64,000 bases of DNA from Dietzia sp. JS16-p6b (GTDB lineage Bacteria > Actinomycetota > Actinomycetes > Mycobacteriales > Mycobacteriaceae). A model generated the notes under the pieces. It was not told the DNA's origin and made no database searches. It saw only the letters and a list, made by a program, of their open reading frames with translations. Positions 21,345 through 29,050 of this stretch are shown one piece after another (the first letter of the stretch is position 1; every line of letters begins with the position of its first letter). The DNA lies in the NCBI RefSeq assembly GCF_003052165.1, contig NZ_CP024869.1:2390001-2454000 (forward strand). The letters are read 5' to 3'. A program made the position numbers and the translations under genes.

Positions 21345-21461
21345 GTTACGTGGACGCCGGACGGGTTGTTCCAATCGCAACCACCCGGTAACGGACCGAC
21401 ACTCAGCGGTAACGCCGCGGGCGTGTACTCGCTGCCATGTCACCGGAACCCCTCCGGTGAC
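21345..21461. promoter_or_regulatory. GTnAC-rich control region and hairpin before the Nit1C operon
   Basis: Five GTnAC elements (the core of actinobacterial GlnR sites) occur at 21345, 21388, 21409, 21439 and 21457. The two GTAAC copies lie within an identical CGGTAACG octamer exactly 21 bp apart. The last two elements form a perfect 9-bp inverted repeat, GTCACCGGA-5 nt-TCCGGTGAC (21439-21461), ending 21 bp before the GTG start and just upstream of the GAGGAG ribosome site. Nitrogen control by GlnR would suit the operon, but the canonical GlnR spacing is not met, so this is a hypothesis. Confidence 0.45.
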
Positions 21462-21482
21462 CCCGTCCCCGAGGAGCCCACA

Positions 21483-22007
21483 GTGCCCGAGTTCGACGCC
21501 GCCATCACCGAGAACATCGCCGCCTCCCTCAAGGAGATCCCGCACCCGTCGCTGCCCAAGGGCACGAGCATCTACGGCGGCACCAAGATCTTCCCCGACT
21601 ACAAGGCCGAGGAGGGCGAGTCGTACTTCACCCTCGTGCACGGCATCGCCCACGAGTCGTCCGTCTCCTTCGTCGCCGTGCTCCAGGCCACCCGCGCCCT
21701 GCGCAAGGGGTTCGAGTCGGCCATCTACTTCTACGGCCCCGGCGCCATCAACTGCCTCGCCACCCGCGGATTCCCCACCACCGGGGACTCCGGCTTCCCC
21801 GGCGAGCAGAACATCAACGAGTCCCTCGAGGCGTTCATCTCCGAGGGCGGGACAGTGTTCTGCTGCCGCTTCGGGCTCGGCCTCCACGGCGGCCGCGAGG
21901 AGGACCTGATCGAGGGCGTGATCCCCGCGCACCCGCTCGACGTTCAGGACGCCCTGATCCACTACGCCCGCAAGGGCGCCATCATCAACTCCACCTACAT
22001 GGTCTGA
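21483..22007 (+). CDS. MSMEG_0572/Sll0783-family nitrogen-starvation protein
   Basis: A 174-residue soluble protein of the MSMEG_0572/Sll0783 family, first gene of the Nit1C cluster. The family is induced by nitrogen starvation in several bacteria, but its activity is unknown. Visible conserved stretches are SLPKGTSIYGGTKIFPDYKAE, FVAVLQATRALRKGFESAIYFYGPGAINCLATRGFPTTG and VIPAHPLDVQDALIHYARKGAIINSTYMV; the middle part recalls DsrE-like folds. The GTG at 21483 follows a GAGGAG ribosome site. The nitrilase gene starts 4 bp after the stop, so the operon is tightly packed. Confidence 0.85.
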   Translation: MPEFDAAITENIAASLKEIPHPSLPKGTSIYGGTKIFPDYKAEEGESYFTLVHGIAHESSVSFVAVLQATRALRKGFESAIYFYGPGAINCLATRGFPTTGDSGFPGEQNINESLEAFISEGGTVFCCRFGLGLHGGREEDLIEGVIPAHPLDVQDALIHYARKGAIINSTYMV

Positions 22008-22011
22008 CGTC

Positions 22012-22902
22012 ATGACCACCATCGGCTCGGTCGCGGCCAACTTCACCCGCGACCTCGAACAGAACTACCGGACCATCGCCCACTACGCGGAGCTCGCCCG
22101 TGAGCGCGGGGTCGACTTCCTGGTCTTCCCCGAGGCCGCCATCGGGGGCTATCTCTCCAGCCTCGGCAACCACGGCGACACCACGCGTACCGCCCGGTCG
22201 CTGCCGCCGGCGATCCGTCTCGACGGCCCCGAGATCGCCCGCGTCCGGGAGATCGTCGGAGACCTGGTGGTGGCCATCGGTTTCTGCGAGCTGGGCGCCG
22301 ACGGCGTGAGCCGCTACAACGCCGCCGCCGTCCTCGACGGAACCTGCGTCTACGGGACCTACCGCAAGGTGCACCAGCCTCTCGGGGAGAACATGTCCTA
22401 CGCCTCCGGCGGCGACTACCAGGTCTTCGACACCCCGGTCGGGCGGGTGGGCCTGCAGATCTGCTACGACAAGGCGTTCCCCGAGGCCGCTCGCGTCATG
22501 GCCCTGCAGGGCGCGGAGATCATCGCCTCCCTGTCGGCGTGGCCGGCGGCGCGCACGGCGACCGCCGCCAACCTGCAGGAGGACCGCTGGACCTACCGGT
22601 TCAACCTCTTCGACTCCGCCCGGGCCCTGGACAATCAGGTGTTCTGGGTGGCCTCCAACCAGGCGGGGACCTTCGGGTCGCTCCGGTACGTGGGCAACGC
22701 CAAGATCGTCGATCCCGGCGGGAACGTCCTGGCCACCACCACTCTCGACGAGGGCCTGGCGGTCGCCGAGGTCGACATCGCGGGCACCTTCTCCGCTATG
22801 CGCGCCGGGATGTTCCACCTGCGCGATCGGCGTCCCGACGTCTACGGGCCGCTGGTCGAGCTGAACGACCCGGTCGAGGAGAGGAGGCTCGCCAGTGCCT
22901 GA
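22012..22902 (+). CDS. nitrilase-superfamily hydrolase, intact catalytic triad (Nit1C)
   Basis: A 296-residue carbon-nitrogen hydrolase. The catalytic triad is complete: E41 in FPEAAIGGY, K119 in YRKVHQP and C151 in LQICYDKAFPE. The fold and length (about 300) fit the nitrilase superfamily. The Cys context (CYDKAFPE) differs from that of the cyanobacterial Nit6803-type nitrilase usually quoted for Nit1C clusters (CWEHYNP, from memory), and instead matches the second hydrolase of this operon. In Nit1C clusters the nitrilase is thought to act on a nitrile, possibly one formed from cyanide; whether this enzyme makes an acid plus ammonia or acts as an amidase is open. It overlaps the next gene by 8 nt. 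Confidence 0.87.
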   Translation: MTTIGSVAANFTRDLEQNYRTIAHYAELARERGVDFLVFPEAAIGGYLSSLGNHGDTTRTARSLPPAIRLDGPEIARVREIVGDLVVAIGFCELGADGVSRYNAAAVLDGTCVYGTYRKVHQPLGENMSYASGGDYQVFDTPVGRVGLQICYDKAFPEAARVMALQGAEIIASLSAWPAARTATAANLQEDRWTYRFNLFDSARALDNQVFWVASNQAGTFGSLRYVGNAKIVDPGGNVLATTTLDEGLAVAEVDIAGTFSAMRAGMFHLRDRRPDVYGPLVELNDPVEERRLASA

Positions 22903-23191
22903 GATGAACTTCGCCGTCCGGTGGCCCGACGGCACGGTCCGGGACTACTACTCCCCCAGTCTGGTGATCCACGACCACCTCACGGTCGGCGAGCGACTCA
23001 GCGTCGCCGAGTTCCGCGCCCGGGCCACCCACGCCCTCACCGAGGCGGGCGAGCGGGTCCGCGCCCGCTACGGGTTCCTGTGCACCTCCGCCGCCGAGAC
23101 CGCCGCGCAGGTGACCTCGGCGAGCCTGGCCCACCCCGGGGACGCCCTCGTCGAGGTGGTCGCCATGGATCCTCTCGAGGAGCACCCATGA
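22895..23191 (+). CDS. MSMEG_0570-family nitrogen-starvation protein
   Basis: A 98-residue soluble protein of the MSMEG_0570 family, a constant but uncharacterised member of Nit1C clusters. It begins MPEMNFAVRWPDG and contains DYYSPSLVIHDHL and LSVAEFRARATHALTEAGERVRARYGFLC, suggesting an alpha/beta fold with two conserved His residues and one Cys. The GTG at 22895 lies inside the nitrilase gene's last codons behind GAGGAGAGG, and its stop overlaps the next start (ATGA). Stoichiometric co-expression with its neighbours is therefore likely. Confidence 0.82.
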   Translation: MPEMNFAVRWPDGTVRDYYSPSLVIHDHLTVGERLSVAEFRARATHALTEAGERVRARYGFLCTSAAETAAQVTSASLAHPGDALVEVVAMDPLEEHP

Positions 23192-24471
23192 GCCCCACAC
23201 AGGTTTCCCCCGGCACCCACATCCCGGTGCTCGTCATCGGCGGCGGCCAGGCCGGTCTCTCGGTGAGCCACCACCTCGGCGCCGCGGGCGTCGAACATCT
23301 GGTGGTGGAGAAGCAGACCGCCGTGCACGCCTGGGCCGACACGCGCTGGGACTCCTTCACGCTCGTCACCCCGAACTGGCACTGCCGACTGCCGGGCTAC
23401 CACTACGAGGGGCCCGACCCCGACGGGTTCATGACCCGCGACCAGGTGGTGGAGTGGCTGCACGGGTGGCTGGAGACCTTCGAGCCGCCGTTGGCCGAGC
23501 ACACGGCCGCCACGCGGCTCCGCCGGACCGGGACCGGCTTCGAGGTGACCCTCGCCGGCCCGGTCGGCGAGCGGACGGTCACCGCGGACGAGGTGGTGGT
23601 GGCCACCGGCGGCTACCCGATCCCCGTGATCCCGCCCTACGCCTCCTTCCTCGATCCCGCCGTGGTGCAGCTGCACTCCGAGCAGTACCGCAATCCCGAC
23701 CAGCTGGCCGAGGGCGCGGTCCTGGTGGTGGGGTCGGGCCAGTCCGGTGCGCAGATCGCCGAGGACCTGCACCTCGCGGGCCGCCGTGTCCACCTGGCGG
23801 TCGGCAACGCCCCGCGCGTCGCCCGGTTCTACCGGGGCCGGGACTGCATGACCTGGCTCGCGGACATGGGGCTGTACGACACCCCCGCCCAGCAGTACCC
23901 GGGGGGCAAGGCCGCGCAGGAGAAGACCAACCACTACGTCACCGGCCGCGACGGTGGACGGGACGTGGACCTGCGGCGCTTCGCCGCCGAGGGGATGCGC
24001 CTCTACGGCACGCTCACCTCCGGACGGGACTCCGAGCTGCGCTTCGCCCCGACGCTGACCGACGCCCTGGACTCGGCGGACCGGGTGTACAACTCCATCT
24101 GCGCCGACATCGACCGGCACATCGACGCCCACGGGATCGACGCCCCGCCGCCGTCGCGGTACTCCCCGGTGTGGGCGCCCGAGGCCGACCCGACCTCACT
24201 CGACCTGGCGGCCGAGGGGATCACCACCATCATCTGGGCCATCGGCTACCGGCCCGACTACCGCTGGATCGAGGCCAGCGCCTTCGACGGCGCGGGCCAC
24301 CCCATGCAGACCCGCGGTGTGACGGAGGTGCCCGGCCTGTCGTTCGTGGGCCTGCCCTGGATGCACACGTGGGGTTCCGGCCGGTTCCTCGGGATCGACC
24401 GCGATGCGAAGTACCTCGCCGACGGCATCATCGCCCGGCGTCACGCCAACCGAGAGGAACGCGCATCATGA
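23188..24471 (+). CDS. MSMEG_0569-family FAD-dependent oxidoreductase
   Basis: A 427-residue flavin-dependent monooxygenase-like protein. The N-terminal FAD fold is VLVIGGGQAGLSVSHHLG (residues 11-28), and a second Rossmann motif VLVVGSGQSGAQIAEDL for NAD(P)H lies near residue 180. Conserved SFTLVTPNWHCRLPGY and the C-terminal IIWAIGYRPDY and GLPWMHTWGSGRFLG regions match the family. In Nit1C clusters it is the flavoprotein predicted to oxygenate a nitrogenous substrate. The start overlaps the previous stop, and its stop overlaps the radical SAM start. Confidence 0.88.
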   Translation: MSPTQVSPGTHIPVLVIGGGQAGLSVSHHLGAAGVEHLVVEKQTAVHAWADTRWDSFTLVTPNWHCRLPGYHYEGPDPDGFMTRDQVVEWLHGWLETFEPPLAEHTAATRLRRTGTGFEVTLAGPVGERTVTADEVVVATGGYPIPVIPPYASFLDPAVVQLHSEQYRNPDQLAEGAVLVVGSGQSGAQIAEDLHLAGRRVHLAVGNAPRVARFYRGRDCMTWLADMGLYDTPAQQYPGGKAAQEKTNHYVTGRDGGRDVDLRRFAAEGMRLYGTLTSGRDSELRFAPTLTDALDSADRVYNSICADIDRHIDAHGIDAPPPSRYSPVWAPEADPTSLDLAAEGITTIIWAIGYRPDYRWIEASAFDGAGHPMQTRGVTEVPGLSFVGLPWMHTWGSGRFLGIDRDAKYLADGIIARRHANREERAS

Positions 24472-25562
24472 CCACCTCCACCACCACAGCGGCCGCCACC
24501 ACCGCAGGGGCCACCTCGACACGGGTCGACCTGGCGCTGCTCGGCATCCGGGGCACCCCGCCCCTGCACCGCAGCGGGGGCGCGGGGCCGAGCGACGACG
24601 GGCATCTCGTGGTCTCCGGGCGCGACGCCGCGCTGCCCCGCAACCCCGACAGCCCCTTCGTCTTCGACGGCGACCGGGTCCTGCGCGACGGGGTGGACAC
24701 CGGGCTCGAGATCTCCGCGATCGGCCGCCCCCGCTTCTACGACCGCCGCACCGCGGACGGGGTGCCGTACGAGAAGATCGCGCGGCTCCACGGCCGGGAC
24801 GTCCTGGCCACGACGGTGGTGCAGACCTGCATCCGCTACCGCCGCGACGAGCGCTGCCGGTTCTGCTCGATCGAGGAGTCGTTGCGCTCCGGCACCACCG
24901 TGCCGGTCAAACAGCCCGAGCAGCTCGCCGAGGTCGCGCGCGCCGCCGTGGACCTCGACGGGGTCCGGCAGATGGTCATGACCACGGGGACCTCGGCCGG
25001 CCGCGACCGCGGGGCGGCACACCTGGCGCGCTGCGTCCGGGCCGTCCGGGCCGCGGTCCCGGACCTGCCGATCCAGGTCCAGTGCGAACCGCCCGCCGAC
25101 CTGGCGGTGCTGACCGACCTCCGCGAGGCCGGTGCGGACGCGATAGGCATCCACGTCGAGTCGCTCGACGACGACGCCCGCCGGCGGTGGATGCCCGGCA
25201 AATCGACGGTCCCCCTGACCGAGTACCGGGCCGCCTGGGACGAGGCGGTCCGGGTGTTCGGACGCAACCAGGTCTCGACCTACCTCCTCGTCGGGCTCGG
25301 CGAGGACCCCGACGAGATGATCGCCGGCGCGCGGGAGCTCGCCGACTCGGGGGTCTACCCGTTCATCGTCCCGTACCGCCCCCAGGCGGGGACGCTCGCC
25401 GTCGACGTCGACGGGGCTCCCGCACCAGACCACAGGCGGGTGGAGTACATCAGCCGCGAGGTGGGTGCACACCTGCAGCGCCTGGGGATGGCCGGGTCGG
25501 ACCAGCGCGCGGGTTGCGCGGCGTGCGGGGCGTGCAGCGTCCTGCAGTCGGTCGGCGGGTGA
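24468..25562 (+). CDS. MSMEG_0568-family radical SAM protein
   Basis: A 364-residue radical SAM enzyme of the Nit1C cluster. The likely [4Fe-4S] cysteines are C121, C130 and C133, giving C-x8-C-x2-C (TCIRYRRDERCRFCSIE), not the canonical C-x3-C-x2-C. A barrel follows, with MVMTTGTSAGRDRG, IQVQCEPPADL and STYLLVGLGEDPDEM. The C-terminus has a further Cys cluster, GCAACGACS, which may bind an auxiliary cluster. The first 20 residues are Thr/Ala-rich and probably disordered. The reaction is unknown; the long spacing seems to be a family trait but I could not verify that by alignment. Confidence 0.88.
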   Translation: MTTSTTTAAATTAGATSTRVDLALLGIRGTPPLHRSGGAGPSDDGHLVVSGRDAALPRNPDSPFVFDGDRVLRDGVDTGLEISAIGRPRFYDRRTADGVPYEKIARLHGRDVLATTVVQTCIRYRRDERCRFCSIEESLRSGTTVPVKQPEQLAEVARAAVDLDGVRQMVMTTGTSAGRDRGAAHLARCVRAVRAAVPDLPIQVQCEPPADLAVLTDLREAGADAIGIHVESLDDDARRRWMPGKSTVPLTEYRAAWDEAVRVFGRNQVSTYLLVGLGEDPDEMIAGARELADSGVYPFIVPYRPQAGTLAVDVDGAPAPDHRRVEYISREVGAHLQRLGMAGSDQRAGCAACGACSVLQSVGG

Positions 25563-25566
25563 GTCG

Positions 25567-27045
25567 ATGCTCGACATCCGAGACCTCACCGGGCACTCGC
25601 CCACCGGCCCCGCGCTCACCGGCCGGGCCCGCACGGTGCACCCCGTCCCGGGCTCGGCCGCCGCGACGATCCTCGCCGGGGGACGCCGCGCAGAGCCGGG
25701 CCCGGTGGTTCGGATCGCGGACGACCCCGGAGTGCTGGCCGCCTACCGCCGGCTCCGCCACGAGGAGTTCGTTCTCCGCCAGGGACTGTTCCCCCGCACC
25801 GACCTCGACGACGTCGACGACGATCCCCGCACCGTGGTGCTCGTCTCGGTCGCGCCGGACGGCACCGTCCTCGGAGGGGTCCGGATCGCGCCCTGCGCCC
25901 GGCCGGACATCGGATGGTGGTCCGGGAGCCGGCTGGTGGTGGCCGGTACGGCCCACTCCGGCGGCATCGGCCCCGCGTTGATCCGCTCCGCCTGCGCGCA
26001 CGTGGAGGCCCGCGGGGTGCTGCGCTTCGACGCGGACGTCCAGGACCGCTACTGCCCGCTGTTCACCTCCCTCGGGTGGGTCGACACCGGGGAGGGACCG
26101 GTCCTCTCCGGTCGCGCCCACCGCCGGATGCGGTGGCCGGTCGACCGGGTCCAGCGTCTGGCCGACACCACCAAGTCCCTGCTGTCCGGGCTGCTGGCCC
26201 CGTTGGCCGACCAGCCCGGCGGACTCGGCGGCGCCGGCTTCCGCGGCGACGACGGGGCGCCGGTGCCGGGCACCGATCTCGTGGCGGCGTGCGACGCGAT
26301 CCTGCCCTCGATGGTCGAGCGCGACCCGGAGTGGGCCGGCTGGTGCTCGGTGTTGGTCAACCTCGGTGACCTCTCGGCCATGGGCGCCGACCCCGTGGGA
26401 CTGCTCGACGCCGTCGCCGCCCCGACCACCTCCCATCTCGAGCGGATCGTCAGGGGCGTGGCCGCCGCCGCGGCCGCCTGGCGTGTCCCCGTGCTCGGTG
26501 GCCACACGCAGGTCGGTGTCCCGTCGGCGCTGTCGGTGACCGCGCTGGGGCGCACCTCCCGGCCGGTGCCGGCCGGCGGGGGCCGCGCGGGCCACATCCT
26601 GTCCCTCACCGCGGACCTCGGTGGCTCCTGGCGGCCGGGATACCACGAGCGGCAGTGGGACTCCTCGAGCAGCCGGACCTCCGAGGAACTGCGCCTGCTC
26701 GCCGGGCACGTCGCGCGGATCGCCCCCGCCGCCGCCAAGGACGTGAGCATGGCGGGGATCGTCGGCACGGCGGGGATGCTCGCGGAGGCCTCCGGGACGG
26801 GCGCCGAGTTCGACGTCGCGGCGATCCCCCGCCCTCCGGGCGCGAGCGCGGGCGCCTGGCTCACGTGCTTCCCCGGTTATGCCATGCTCACCGCCGACCG
26901 GGACCCGGCCCCCGCCCCCGCGGGCCCGGCGGTCACCGCGGCCTGTGGACACCTCACCGACGAGCCCGGGGTGCGACTGCGCTGGCCCGACGGAGAGGTC
27001 ACCGTCGCCGTCGTCGGCACCGTGACGGGACTCGGTCCCGCCTGA
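25567..27045 (+). CDS. MSMEG_0567/Sll0787-family fusion: GNAT plus AIR-synthase-like domain
   Basis: A 492-residue two-domain protein. Residues about 45-190 form a GNAT-type acyltransferase (LRHEEFVLRQGLF start, GGIGPALIRSACAHVEARG as the CoA loop, CPLFTSLGW end). Residues about 200-490 are an AIR-synthase/PurM-like domain (DLSAMGADPVGLLDAV, PVLGGHTQVG, AKDVSMAGIVGTAGMLAEASG), a fold that phosphorylates or cyclises amides with ATP. In some bacteria these domains are encoded separately in Nit1C clusters; here they are fused. The stop overlaps the next start (TGATG). Confidence 0.86.
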   Translation: MLDIRDLTGHSPTGPALTGRARTVHPVPGSAAATILAGGRRAEPGPVVRIADDPGVLAAYRRLRHEEFVLRQGLFPRTDLDDVDDDPRTVVLVSVAPDGTVLGGVRIAPCARPDIGWWSGSRLVVAGTAHSGGIGPALIRSACAHVEARGVLRFDADVQDRYCPLFTSLGWVDTGEGPVLSGRAHRRMRWPVDRVQRLADTTKSLLSGLLAPLADQPGGLGGAGFRGDDGAPVPGTDLVAACDAILPSMVERDPEWAGWCSVLVNLGDLSAMGADPVGLLDAVAAPTTSHLERIVRGVAAAAAAWRVPVLGGHTQVGVPSALSVTALGRTSRPVPAGGGRAGHILSLTADLGGSWRPGYHERQWDSSSSRTSEELRLLAGHVARIAPAAAKDVSMAGIVGTAGMLAEASGTGAEFDVAAIPRPPGASAGAWLTCFPGYAMLTADRDPAPAPAGPAVTAACGHLTDEPGVRLRWPDGEVTVAVVGTVTGLGPA

Positions 27046-27926
27046 TGCGCGCGGTGACCCTGGGGGCGTTGGCGGGGAACTTCGGCCGGGACCTCACGCG
27101 CTGCGTGGCCAAGGCCGTCGGCATCATCGATGCCGCGGCCCGCGACGGCGTCGACCTGCTCGTCTTCCCGCACGCGACCCTCGGCGGCTACCTCGGCGAT
27201 CTGCGCCACCCCTCCCCCGCGACCCTCCCCCCGGCCCTCGACCCCGACGGCCCGGAACTGGCCGCCATCGCCGCCGCCGCGGGAGACATGACCGTGTGCA
27301 TCGGCTACACCGAGGCCGGGGACGGCACGCGCTACAACACCGCCGTCTGCCTCACCGGCGACGGTGTCCTCGGCGTCCACCGCAAGGTGCATCAACCCGT
27401 CGACGAGGGCACCCGCTACGGCGCAGGGGACGCGTTCCGCGCCTTCGACACCCCGATCGGGCGCCTGGGGATGCTCATCGACTACGACAAGACCTTCCCC
27501 GAGTCCGCGCGGTCGCTCGCCCTCGACGGCGCGCAGGTGGTGGCCACCCTGTCGGCCTGGCCCGCCAGCGTGACCGACCGCGCCGCCCGGCTGCCCGCGG
27601 ACCGACAGTCCCGACTGTTCGACCTCTACGACTGCGCCCGGGCCGCCGAGAACCAGGTGTTCGTGGTGGCCTCCAACCAGACCGGGGTCATGGGGTCCCT
27701 CCGCTTCCTCGGCCAGGCCAAGGTCGTGGGTCCCGGGGGCGAGATCCTGGCCGCGACACGGTCCAAGGGCGGGCTCGCCCGGATCGAGGTCGATGTCCAC
27801 ACCGAGCTCGCACGCTCGCGTCGGGTCCTCGACCACCTGGCGGAGCGGCGACCGGAGACCTACGCGACGGAACCACGCCGGGCGCCCTCGCCTGCGCGAC
27901 CGGGAGGCGACACGACGTGCGGATAG
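27045..27926 (+). CDS. nitrilase-fold protein lacking catalytic Glu and Cys
   Basis: A 293-residue paralogue of the upstream nitrilase, aligned along its whole length (NFGRDL, VHRKVHQP, GSLRFLGQAKVVGPGGEILAAT). The catalytic positions are changed: Glu becomes H43 (FPHATLGGY) and the nucleophile Cys becomes D146 (MLIDYDKTFPE), while Lys K114 is kept. Classical nitrilase/amidase chemistry should therefore be impossible. It could be a structural or regulatory partner that co-assembles with the active paralogue, or carry a new activity with the His/Lys/Asp set. The reading frame is intact, so it is not a decaying gene. It occupies the MSMEG_0566 position and overlaps the glycosyltransferase gene by 10 nt. 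Confidence 0.85.
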   Translation: MRAVTLGALAGNFGRDLTRCVAKAVGIIDAAARDGVDLLVFPHATLGGYLGDLRHPSPATLPPALDPDGPELAAIAAAAGDMTVCIGYTEAGDGTRYNTAVCLTGDGVLGVHRKVHQPVDEGTRYGAGDAFRAFDTPIGRLGMLIDYDKTFPESARSLALDGAQVVATLSAWPASVTDRAARLPADRQSRLFDLYDCARAAENQVFVVASNQTGVMGSLRFLGQAKVVGPGGEILAATRSKGGLARIEVDVHTELARSRRVLDHLAERRPETYATEPRRAPSPARPGGDTTCG

Positions 27927-29050
27927 CCCTGCTCACCTATTCGACCCGCCCCCGCGGGGGCGTCGTCCACACCCTCCACCTGGCCGAGGCGCTGGCCCGG
28001 GCCGGACACCGAGTGACGGTGTACTCCCTGGCGCGCGGCGCCGACGCGGGCTTCTTCCGCGAGGTCGATCCCGCGGTCACCGTCCGCCTCGCGCCGTTCC
28101 CGGACCGTCCCGGCGAGTCCGTCACCGACCGGATCGTGCGCTCGATCGCCACCCTGCGCGAGTTCGTCGACCCGGACGGGTTCGACATCGTCCACGCCCA
28201 GGACTGCATCAGCGCCAACGCGGTCGGGCGGTGCATCCGCACCGTGCATCACCTCGACGACTTCACCACCCCCGTTCTGGTGGACTGCCACGAGAAGGCC
28301 CTCACCACCCCCTACGCCCACGTGTGCGTGTCCGAGGCCGTCGCCGCCGAGGTCCGCCAGGGATGGGGTCTGGCCCCCACGGTGATCCCCAACGGTGTCG
28401 ACCACGCCCGCTTCGCCGAGGCCGCCGGCCCGGGCGCGGCCGCCGTCGCCGCCCGCGTCCGGTGGCGCCGCACGCTCGGCCCGTACGTGCTGGCGGTGGG
28501 GGGCATCGAGCCGCGCAAGGGCAGCATCGACCTCCTGGAAGCGTTCGCGCTGCTACGACGGAGGCGTCCGGATCTCTCGCTCGTCTTCGCGGGCGGGGAG
28601 ACCCTGTTCGACTACCGCGACTACCGCGCCCACTTCGACCGGCGGTGCGACGAGCTGGGGTTACACCCCGTGGTCCTGGGCATGGTGCCGGAGGGCGATC
28701 TGCCGGGCCTCGTCGCGGCCTGCGACGCCTTCGCCTTCCCCTCCACTAAAGAGGGCTTCGGGCTGGCGGCGATGGAGGCGCTCGCCGCGGGTCGTCCGGT
28801 CGTCGCCCGCGACCTGCCGATCCTCCGGGAGGTCTTCGGGCCCTGCGTCGACTACGCCGGATCGGTCCCGGAACTCGCACACCTGTTGGAGTCAGCACTG
28901 TCTGCCGATCCGGCGCGGGCCGGGGAGGGCCGTGCCCTGGCGGCCTCGCTCACCTGGGACGCGGCGGCCGCGGCGCACCTGCGGTTCTATGTCGACCACT
29001 CCGGCGGCCACCTCGGGCAGCCACCACCGGCGCAGATGAACGCCGACTGA
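27917..29050 (+). CDS. MSMEG_0565-family glycosyltransferase
   Basis: A 377-residue GT4-type (GT-B fold) glycosyltransferase, last gene of the Nit1C operon. The N-terminus IALLTYSTRPRGGVVHTLHLAEAL is the acceptor-side glycine-rich loop; VIPNGVDHARF and AVGGIEPRKGS mark the donor domain, and PSTKEGFGLAAMEALAAGRPVVA is the conserved E-x7-E donor-binding motif. The GTG at 27917 lies within the preceding gene. It probably glycosylates the small-molecule product or intermediate of the cluster, since no envelope genes accompany it; that is inference. Confidence 0.88.
   Translation: MRIALLTYSTRPRGGVVHTLHLAEALARAGHRVTVYSLARGADAGFFREVDPAVTVRLAPFPDRPGESVTDRIVRSIATLREFVDPDGFDIVHAQDCISANAVGRCIRTVHHLDDFTTPVLVDCHEKALTTPYAHVCVSEAVAAEVRQGWGLAPTVIPNGVDHARFAEAAGPGAAAVAARVRWRRTLGPYVLAVGGIEPRKGSIDLLEAFALLRRRRPDLSLVFAGGETLFDYRDYRAHFDRRCDELGLHPVVLGMVPEGDLPGLVAACDAFAFPSTKEGFGLAAMEALAAGRPVVARDLPILREVFGPCVDYAGSVPELAHLLESALSADPARAGEGRALAASLTWDAAAAAHLRFYVDHSGGHLGQPPPAQMNAD

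Follow-up and report, generated by a model that had tools for sequence, protein, structure and literature searches.

The 64,000-nucleotide stretch of Dietzia sp. JS16-p6b DNA analysed here (the window) carries on its + strand an operon with the gene order 0572, A, 0570, 0569, 0568, 0567, B, 0565, where B is a nitrilase-fold protein at 27045–27926 (+; MSMEG_0566 position), A is its paralogue at 22012–22902 (+; MSMEG_0571 position), and the remaining genes are named after their MSMEG families. The first gene encodes an MSMEG_0572/Sll0783 family protein (frame as scanned 21414–22007, +; TIGR04044, 251.8 bits), with 21414 being the scanned start only and the model match beginning at residue 41, at about 21534. 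Two GGTAAC copies at 21387–21413, upstream of 0572, might belong to a candidate GlnR site. A is followed by an MSMEG_0570 family protein (22895–23191, +; TIGR04042, 110.6 bits), an MSMEG_0569 family flavoprotein (frame as scanned 23188–24471, +; TIGR04046, 642 bits), an MSMEG_0568 family radical SAM protein (frame as scanned 24468–25562, +; TIGR04043, 503.2 bits), and an AIR-synthase-like MSMEG_0567 family protein (25561–27045 as scanned, +; TIGR04050, 488.9 bits), the GNAT-like N-terminal part of which scores 67.8 bits against TIGR04045, slightly below the cut-off of 68.45. The ATG of B shares one base with the stop codon of 0567, and the MSMEG_0565 family glycosyltransferase behind it (27917–29050, +; TIGR04047, 458.2 bits) was scanned from 27923, with the nearest in-frame start being a GTG at 27917 that gives a 10-base overlap with the end of B. 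All genes of the operon pass their NCBIfam cut-offs except A and B, which reach the cut-off of no model, and the GNAT part of 0567.

The GTG of 0570 overlaps the stop codon of A (22895–22902). Among 130 distinct A frames this codon is TGA in 127, and the other three end in TAG. Together with the overlap, these stops speak against the selenocysteine reading of the MSMEG_0571 UGA given in the published account of the gpr cluster (PMC6039565).

The Nit1C/gpr gene set of adjacent 0572, 0570, 0569, 0568, 0567, and 0565 is complete at 21414–29050, as expected from the original prediction of a Nit1C operon, however the cluster lacks the subfamily-1 (Nit6803-type) nitrilase that marks Nit1C. Neither nitrilase-fold protein is a member of the Nit6803 family, with B and A scoring 38.8 and 34.3 bits against TIGR04048 (cut-off 502.6), and a search of this genome with the same model returned no protein over the cut-off, the best being B itself at 33.3 bits. 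On the strength of these scores the operon is Nit1C-like rather than canonical, with a different nitrilase-fold enzyme.

B fills a single open frame of 293 amino acids plus a stop codon, intact as had been claimed, and its best match elsewhere in its own genome is A, the two aligning lengthwise, again as claimed, at 49% identity over residues 4–274. E-K-C is the usual triad of the nitrilase superfamily, and scripted residue numbering reproduces the predicted difference between the paralogues, with A retaining an intact E41-K119-C151 and B reading H43-K114-D146, or H43-K114-(E121)-D146 instead of E-K-E-C with the second Glu included. PF00795 profile scores are 126 bits for B and 151 bits for A (cut-off 23.2), and B, which also has a full-length fold match, belongs to the family by fold, the Glu-Lys-Cys triad of the active enzymes being replaced in it by H-K-D. 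A profile of 18 B proteins matched 43 distinct solved-structure sequences at E <= 1e-10, with 1j31 and 3ivz aligning their Cys, Glu, and Lys with B columns D146, D/H43, and K114, and in five solved-enzyme alignments Glu and Lys (and Cys where unmutated) sit on the same three sites of B. Four PF00795 proteins were found in the genome itself, and A, L323, and L325 retain the Cys, with L325 aligned only around this residue. The predicted model of B is poor at residues 171–190 (pLDDT of 56 and 69 for the blocks of ten), and the predicted model of A, made from seven sequences with a pLDDT of 72, was left out.

The original prediction proposed looking for the His and Asp changes across many genomes. 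The survey covered 160 distinct B proteins. All 160 have Asp at the Cys site and the Lys is likewise kept in 160 of 160, whereas site 1, occupied by Glu in A, is Asp in 144, His in eight, Gly in seven, Gln in one, and Glu in none, so the Cys to Asp change is universal in this set but the His is an atypical, minority state (the window's genus included), with Asp as the usual residue. The distinct A proteins are E-K-C in 123 of 123. Distinct proteins were counted since the underlying 317 loci are partly redundant, with identical and contained copies removed, and with matches of fewer than 200 aligned residues or missing a triad site excluded, the partial L158 and an A copy in L022, which aligns over 173 residues and is odd at sites 1 and 2, being among the exclusions. 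Clustering at 97% leaves Asp in 109, His in seven, Gly in seven, and Gln in one at site 1 of B, and 101 A proteins; the 80 named loci read DKD in 74 and HKD in six, with A being EKC in all 71 seen, and silent codon changes occur at both sites with the residue unchanged (GAC or GAT). The invariance of K114 and D146 spans B proteins down to 57% identity to that of the window in the alignment, and the second Glu (E121) is present in 77 of 78 representatives, with Asp in the remaining one.

Of the named relatives returned for B, the nearest comes from Dietzia natronolimnaea (95%), and M. smegmatis MSMEG_0566 presumably carries D-K-D, judging from the named Mycolicibacterium and Mycobacterium loci. 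The sole B with Gln at site 1 (L257, genome G824) lies in an operon of altered gene order, where B precedes 0569 and 0567 and the stretch contains no 0565. Nine further homologues fall outside A and B, seven of them E-K-C and two Nit6803-like; the latter, 31% and 29% identical, give RKC and ERC, readings that are probably due to misalignment.

A local mutation or a decaying gene has in its favour that His at site 1 is confined to 8 of the 160 distinct B proteins, a group that includes the window's genus, however the survey refutes this reading, which we regard as extremely improbable. The original prediction had tied a local mutation to orthologues that keep Glu and Cys, and none does so (0/160 for each), with Asp standing in for Cys throughout. 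Furthermore, the median NG86 dN/dS of B is 0.068 (quartiles 0.051, 0.083; 249 pairs), that of A being 0.079 (quartiles 0.054, 0.100; 248 pairs), and comparison of the window with the B of D. natronolimnaea gives a dN of 0.025 and a dS of 0.223. Mean column entropy is 0.96 bits in the 78 B and 1.13 bits in the 65 A representatives, two sets that are unmatched for divergence. Columns identical in both groups include F13, P42, G47, G48, Y49, R113–H116, E121, Y147–K149, W172, P173, and N203, which bears out the claim of conserved residues around the site. Given the low dN/dS, B is under strong purifying selection, and on these data it is no drifting remnant, in agreement with the proposal that selection maintains it. 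Eight columns are fixed differently in the two groups (B/A: D146/C151, T150/A155, Q188/W193, L191/R196, A201/L206, L222/V227, L262/M267, and E267/D272), with T150/A155 four residues beyond the Cys/Asp site, and with Q188/W193 and L191/R196 being at most candidate pocket positions, the site being judged here from sequence columns.

A quick tree with 149 rows puts all 78 rows of B on one side of a branch with a support of 94, and the His and Gly labels need two changes each. A second quick tree of 145 rows, made without the seven active-site columns and with the rows of four loci left out as long, has Cys/Asp changing once (support 99) and site 1 changing five times within B, with change counts of this kind giving no direction; from the usual triad of the superfamily, we infer that E-K-C came before the B state. 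Within the window's class B occurs in several family codes, and outside the class it occurs in G513, a genome of the same phylum, so it is old, was transferred, or both. It may be that B represents a separate branch of the superfamily, in which Cys changed to Asp once and the site, with its Lys, second Glu, and Asp, was rebuilt to bind or convert a metabolite of the Nit1C-like pathway without covalent thiol chemistry. We hold this only tentatively and think it unlikely; if true, a working nitrilase-fold enzyme and one adapted to another task would operate together in one operon.

Hydrolysis in the superfamily proceeds through a covalent Cys intermediate, with Glu acting as the base. As both the Cys and the first Glu are gone, hydrolysis of nitriles or amides by the Cys route is not expected of B, which is a maintained and seemingly old member of the nitrilase fold. 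Because its relatives in many actinobacteria lost the same two residues and stayed intact, B probably persists as a non-hydrolytic helper rather than as a functioning amidase. The reading that we prefer, with a probability of about one half, is that B binds a compound of the pathway in its preserved site and serves as a carrier or a regulator. Having arisen by an old duplication of an E-K-C enzyme of the nitrilase fold, B would have lost its nucleophile and first Glu, judging by the tree in one step or in close steps, and would thereafter have been retained without Cys-route hydrolysis. The preserved site (K114, E121, D146, and neighbours) would bind a small molecule of the operon's pathway, this putative ligand perhaps being related to the substrate or product of A, and B may in this way serve the steps of A and 0565 when nitrogen is limiting. 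The invariant Lys and Asp and the near-invariant second Glu suggest that the preserved site is in use, though the Lys-Asp pair could also be a buried salt bridge that holds the fold, explaining part of the conservation without a ligand.

The same residues, K114 and D146 being invariant in the 160 distinct B proteins and E121 nearly so in the 78 representatives, would also suit an enzyme whose active site is new and uses Lys, the second Glu, and the new Asp for a non-Cys reaction, such as acid-base chemistry. With D, H, G, or Q at position 43, however, there is no constant catalytic residue or metal ligand there, and we know of no precedent for an Asp doing the work of this Cys, making new chemistry at this site rather improbable. 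The four residues seen at site 1 argue for relaxed demands at this position, which counts against the binding-protein reading too. An active-site metal site formed by D/H43, E121, and D146, with D/H exchange, was a further candidate, and was dropped when wider sampling gave Gly and Gln at 43.

The family sample of 151 has 41 genomes with matches, always two or more per genome, of which the second is A-like in 41 of 41, and in the family sample of 401 B is present in 107 genomes, A having fallen under the threshold used. The class sample of 394 has 49 matching genomes, with B in 33 (accompanied in 32 by another, A-like match) and an EKC A-type protein only in 16; B is thereby absent from 16 of the 48 genomes with an A-type or second match, and 0565 lies in the fetched stretch of all 16. 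Nine genomes match in the phylum sample of 396, five with B and four with EKC proteins only, and the radical-SAM gene is over its cut-off in 22 genomes of this sample, including all five with B. The existence of A operons without B in some lineages counts against the binding-protein reading. In G557, a genome that is 98% complete, a D-K-D B lies in an open frame (L238, 8342–9205) with no Nit1C-like neighbour in 17 kb, and neither an A-type protein (the best other match to A being 35% identical, 1e-19) nor an MSMEG_0568 radical-SAM match was found there, which argues against a role bound to the Nit1C-like pathway alone.

This distribution also bears on whether B might be a catalytically inactive partner subunit of A, possibly contacting it by the dimer surface common to nitrilases and stabilising or activating it in a prozyme-like manner, which is conceivable but in our estimation doubtful. 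The frequent company of an A-like protein fits such pairing, as do the occurrence of A-type proteins without B in 16 genomes and of B without A once, as expected for an accessory, and the direct adjacency of A and B in eight stretches (L255, L303–L309). Against it, A is swapped for a type of ~59% identity to the window's A in Rhodococcus-like operons while B and 0565 remain, and G557 carries B although a search of that genome returned no A-type protein. The partial distance correlation of B is 0.42 with 0568, 0.26 with 0572, 0.16 with 0565, 0.13 with 0567, and 0.10 with A, and this method, which is weak, covers 93 loci with six operon genes, and has A coming in two types, does not point to A as the special partner. 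A strict need of B for A, upheld throughout the family sample (41/41), is broken by G557. The earlier interpretation is partly supported, and the mixed filament that it suggested is not favoured.

0565 is next after B in 80 of 80 named loci and lies on the same strand in 194 of the 243 B-holding loci, with at least 45 of the other 49 being bare slices of B. A mutual strict dependence of B and 0565 was rejected, with 0565 occurring without B in 16 of 16 A-only class genomes and over its cut-off in 10 further genomes that have no B match at 1e-50. In G289, where 0565 is over the cut-off, the single match is an EKC protein, and two f42 genomes have the operon with an EKC protein, without B and without 0565 over the cut-off. 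Searches of 16 stretches of Nit1C-like loci from other lineages with the A and B profiles (L174–L186 and L189–L191, some of them short contigs) found no nitrilase; in L174–L183 and L189, most of 0572, 0568, 0567 (split up), and 0565 are represented by relatives, with no carbon-nitrogen hydrolase found in the stretch.

A occurs as two types (L089–L123, L134, L135, L143), ~80% and ~59% identical to that of the window, with the latter lying between 0567 and 0570, and some genomes have a separate 0572-A-0569 cluster with the ~80% type. In L121 and L111, A is absent from the B operon, and an A-type match (77% identity) lies elsewhere in the genome. Four Rhodococcus plasmids, known by match alone, gave matches of 66–68% identity, three of them annotated as carbon-nitrogen hydrolase family protein. 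Two titles look wrong, that of L111 (Kitasatospora arboriphila), whose genome yields match coordinates identical to those of G106, a member of the window's family, and that of L053, an Acidobacteriaceae contig with genes 68–80% identical to the window's operon.

Genes of the M. smegmatis operon are reported to change on nitrogen starvation, with GlnR binding upstream of msmeg_0572 (PMC4222082), and the nitrogen-limitation transcriptome includes msmeg_0571 and msmeg_0566 (PMC4617892). The gpr cluster is described as giving peroxide resistance, with the enzyme mechanisms left open in 2018 (PMC6039565), and the metabolic role of Nit1C was without experimental evidence as of 2005 (PMC1199592), as far as the excerpts of these papers go. 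MSMEG_0566 is called an aliphatic amidase (PMC4617892, PMC4222082, PMC6039565), and one M. smegmatis paper proposes a role for it in supplying nitrogen for assimilation; related sequences argue against amidase function by the Cys route. The titles and abstract openings of the open-licence nitrilase and Nit1C papers searched make no mention of the missing triad. A pseudoenzyme kept beside a live paralogue and a glycosyltransferase offers a handle on what Nit1C-type pathways do.

In its neighbour genes (0572, 0570, 0569, 0568, 0567, and 0565), the window agrees with the Nit1C cluster (PMC1199592) and with the M. smegmatis gpr cluster MSMEG_0565-0572 (PMC6039565) as described in the excerpts of these sources, and it differs from Nit1C in that its nitrilase lies outside the Nit6803 family and in the additional non-EKC paralogue B. 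The folds nearest to B are those of the Medicago N-carbamoylputrescine amidohydrolase (5h8l) and the Pyrococcus horikoshii amidase PH0642 (1j31, 6ypa). Unlike the nitrilase superfamily (PF00795), B has Asp in place of the Cys nucleophile and Asp, His, Gly, or Gln in place of the first Glu in every one of the 160 distinct proteins. The AdoMetDC prozyme of trypanosomatids has a different fold from the nitrilases. According to the part of its published account used here, this dead paralogue forms a heterodimer with the live enzyme (PMC6221367), and B resembles it, from sequence only, in being a dead paralogue retained beside a live enzyme; the enzyme concerned is another one, and the heterodimer is a feature of the prozyme.
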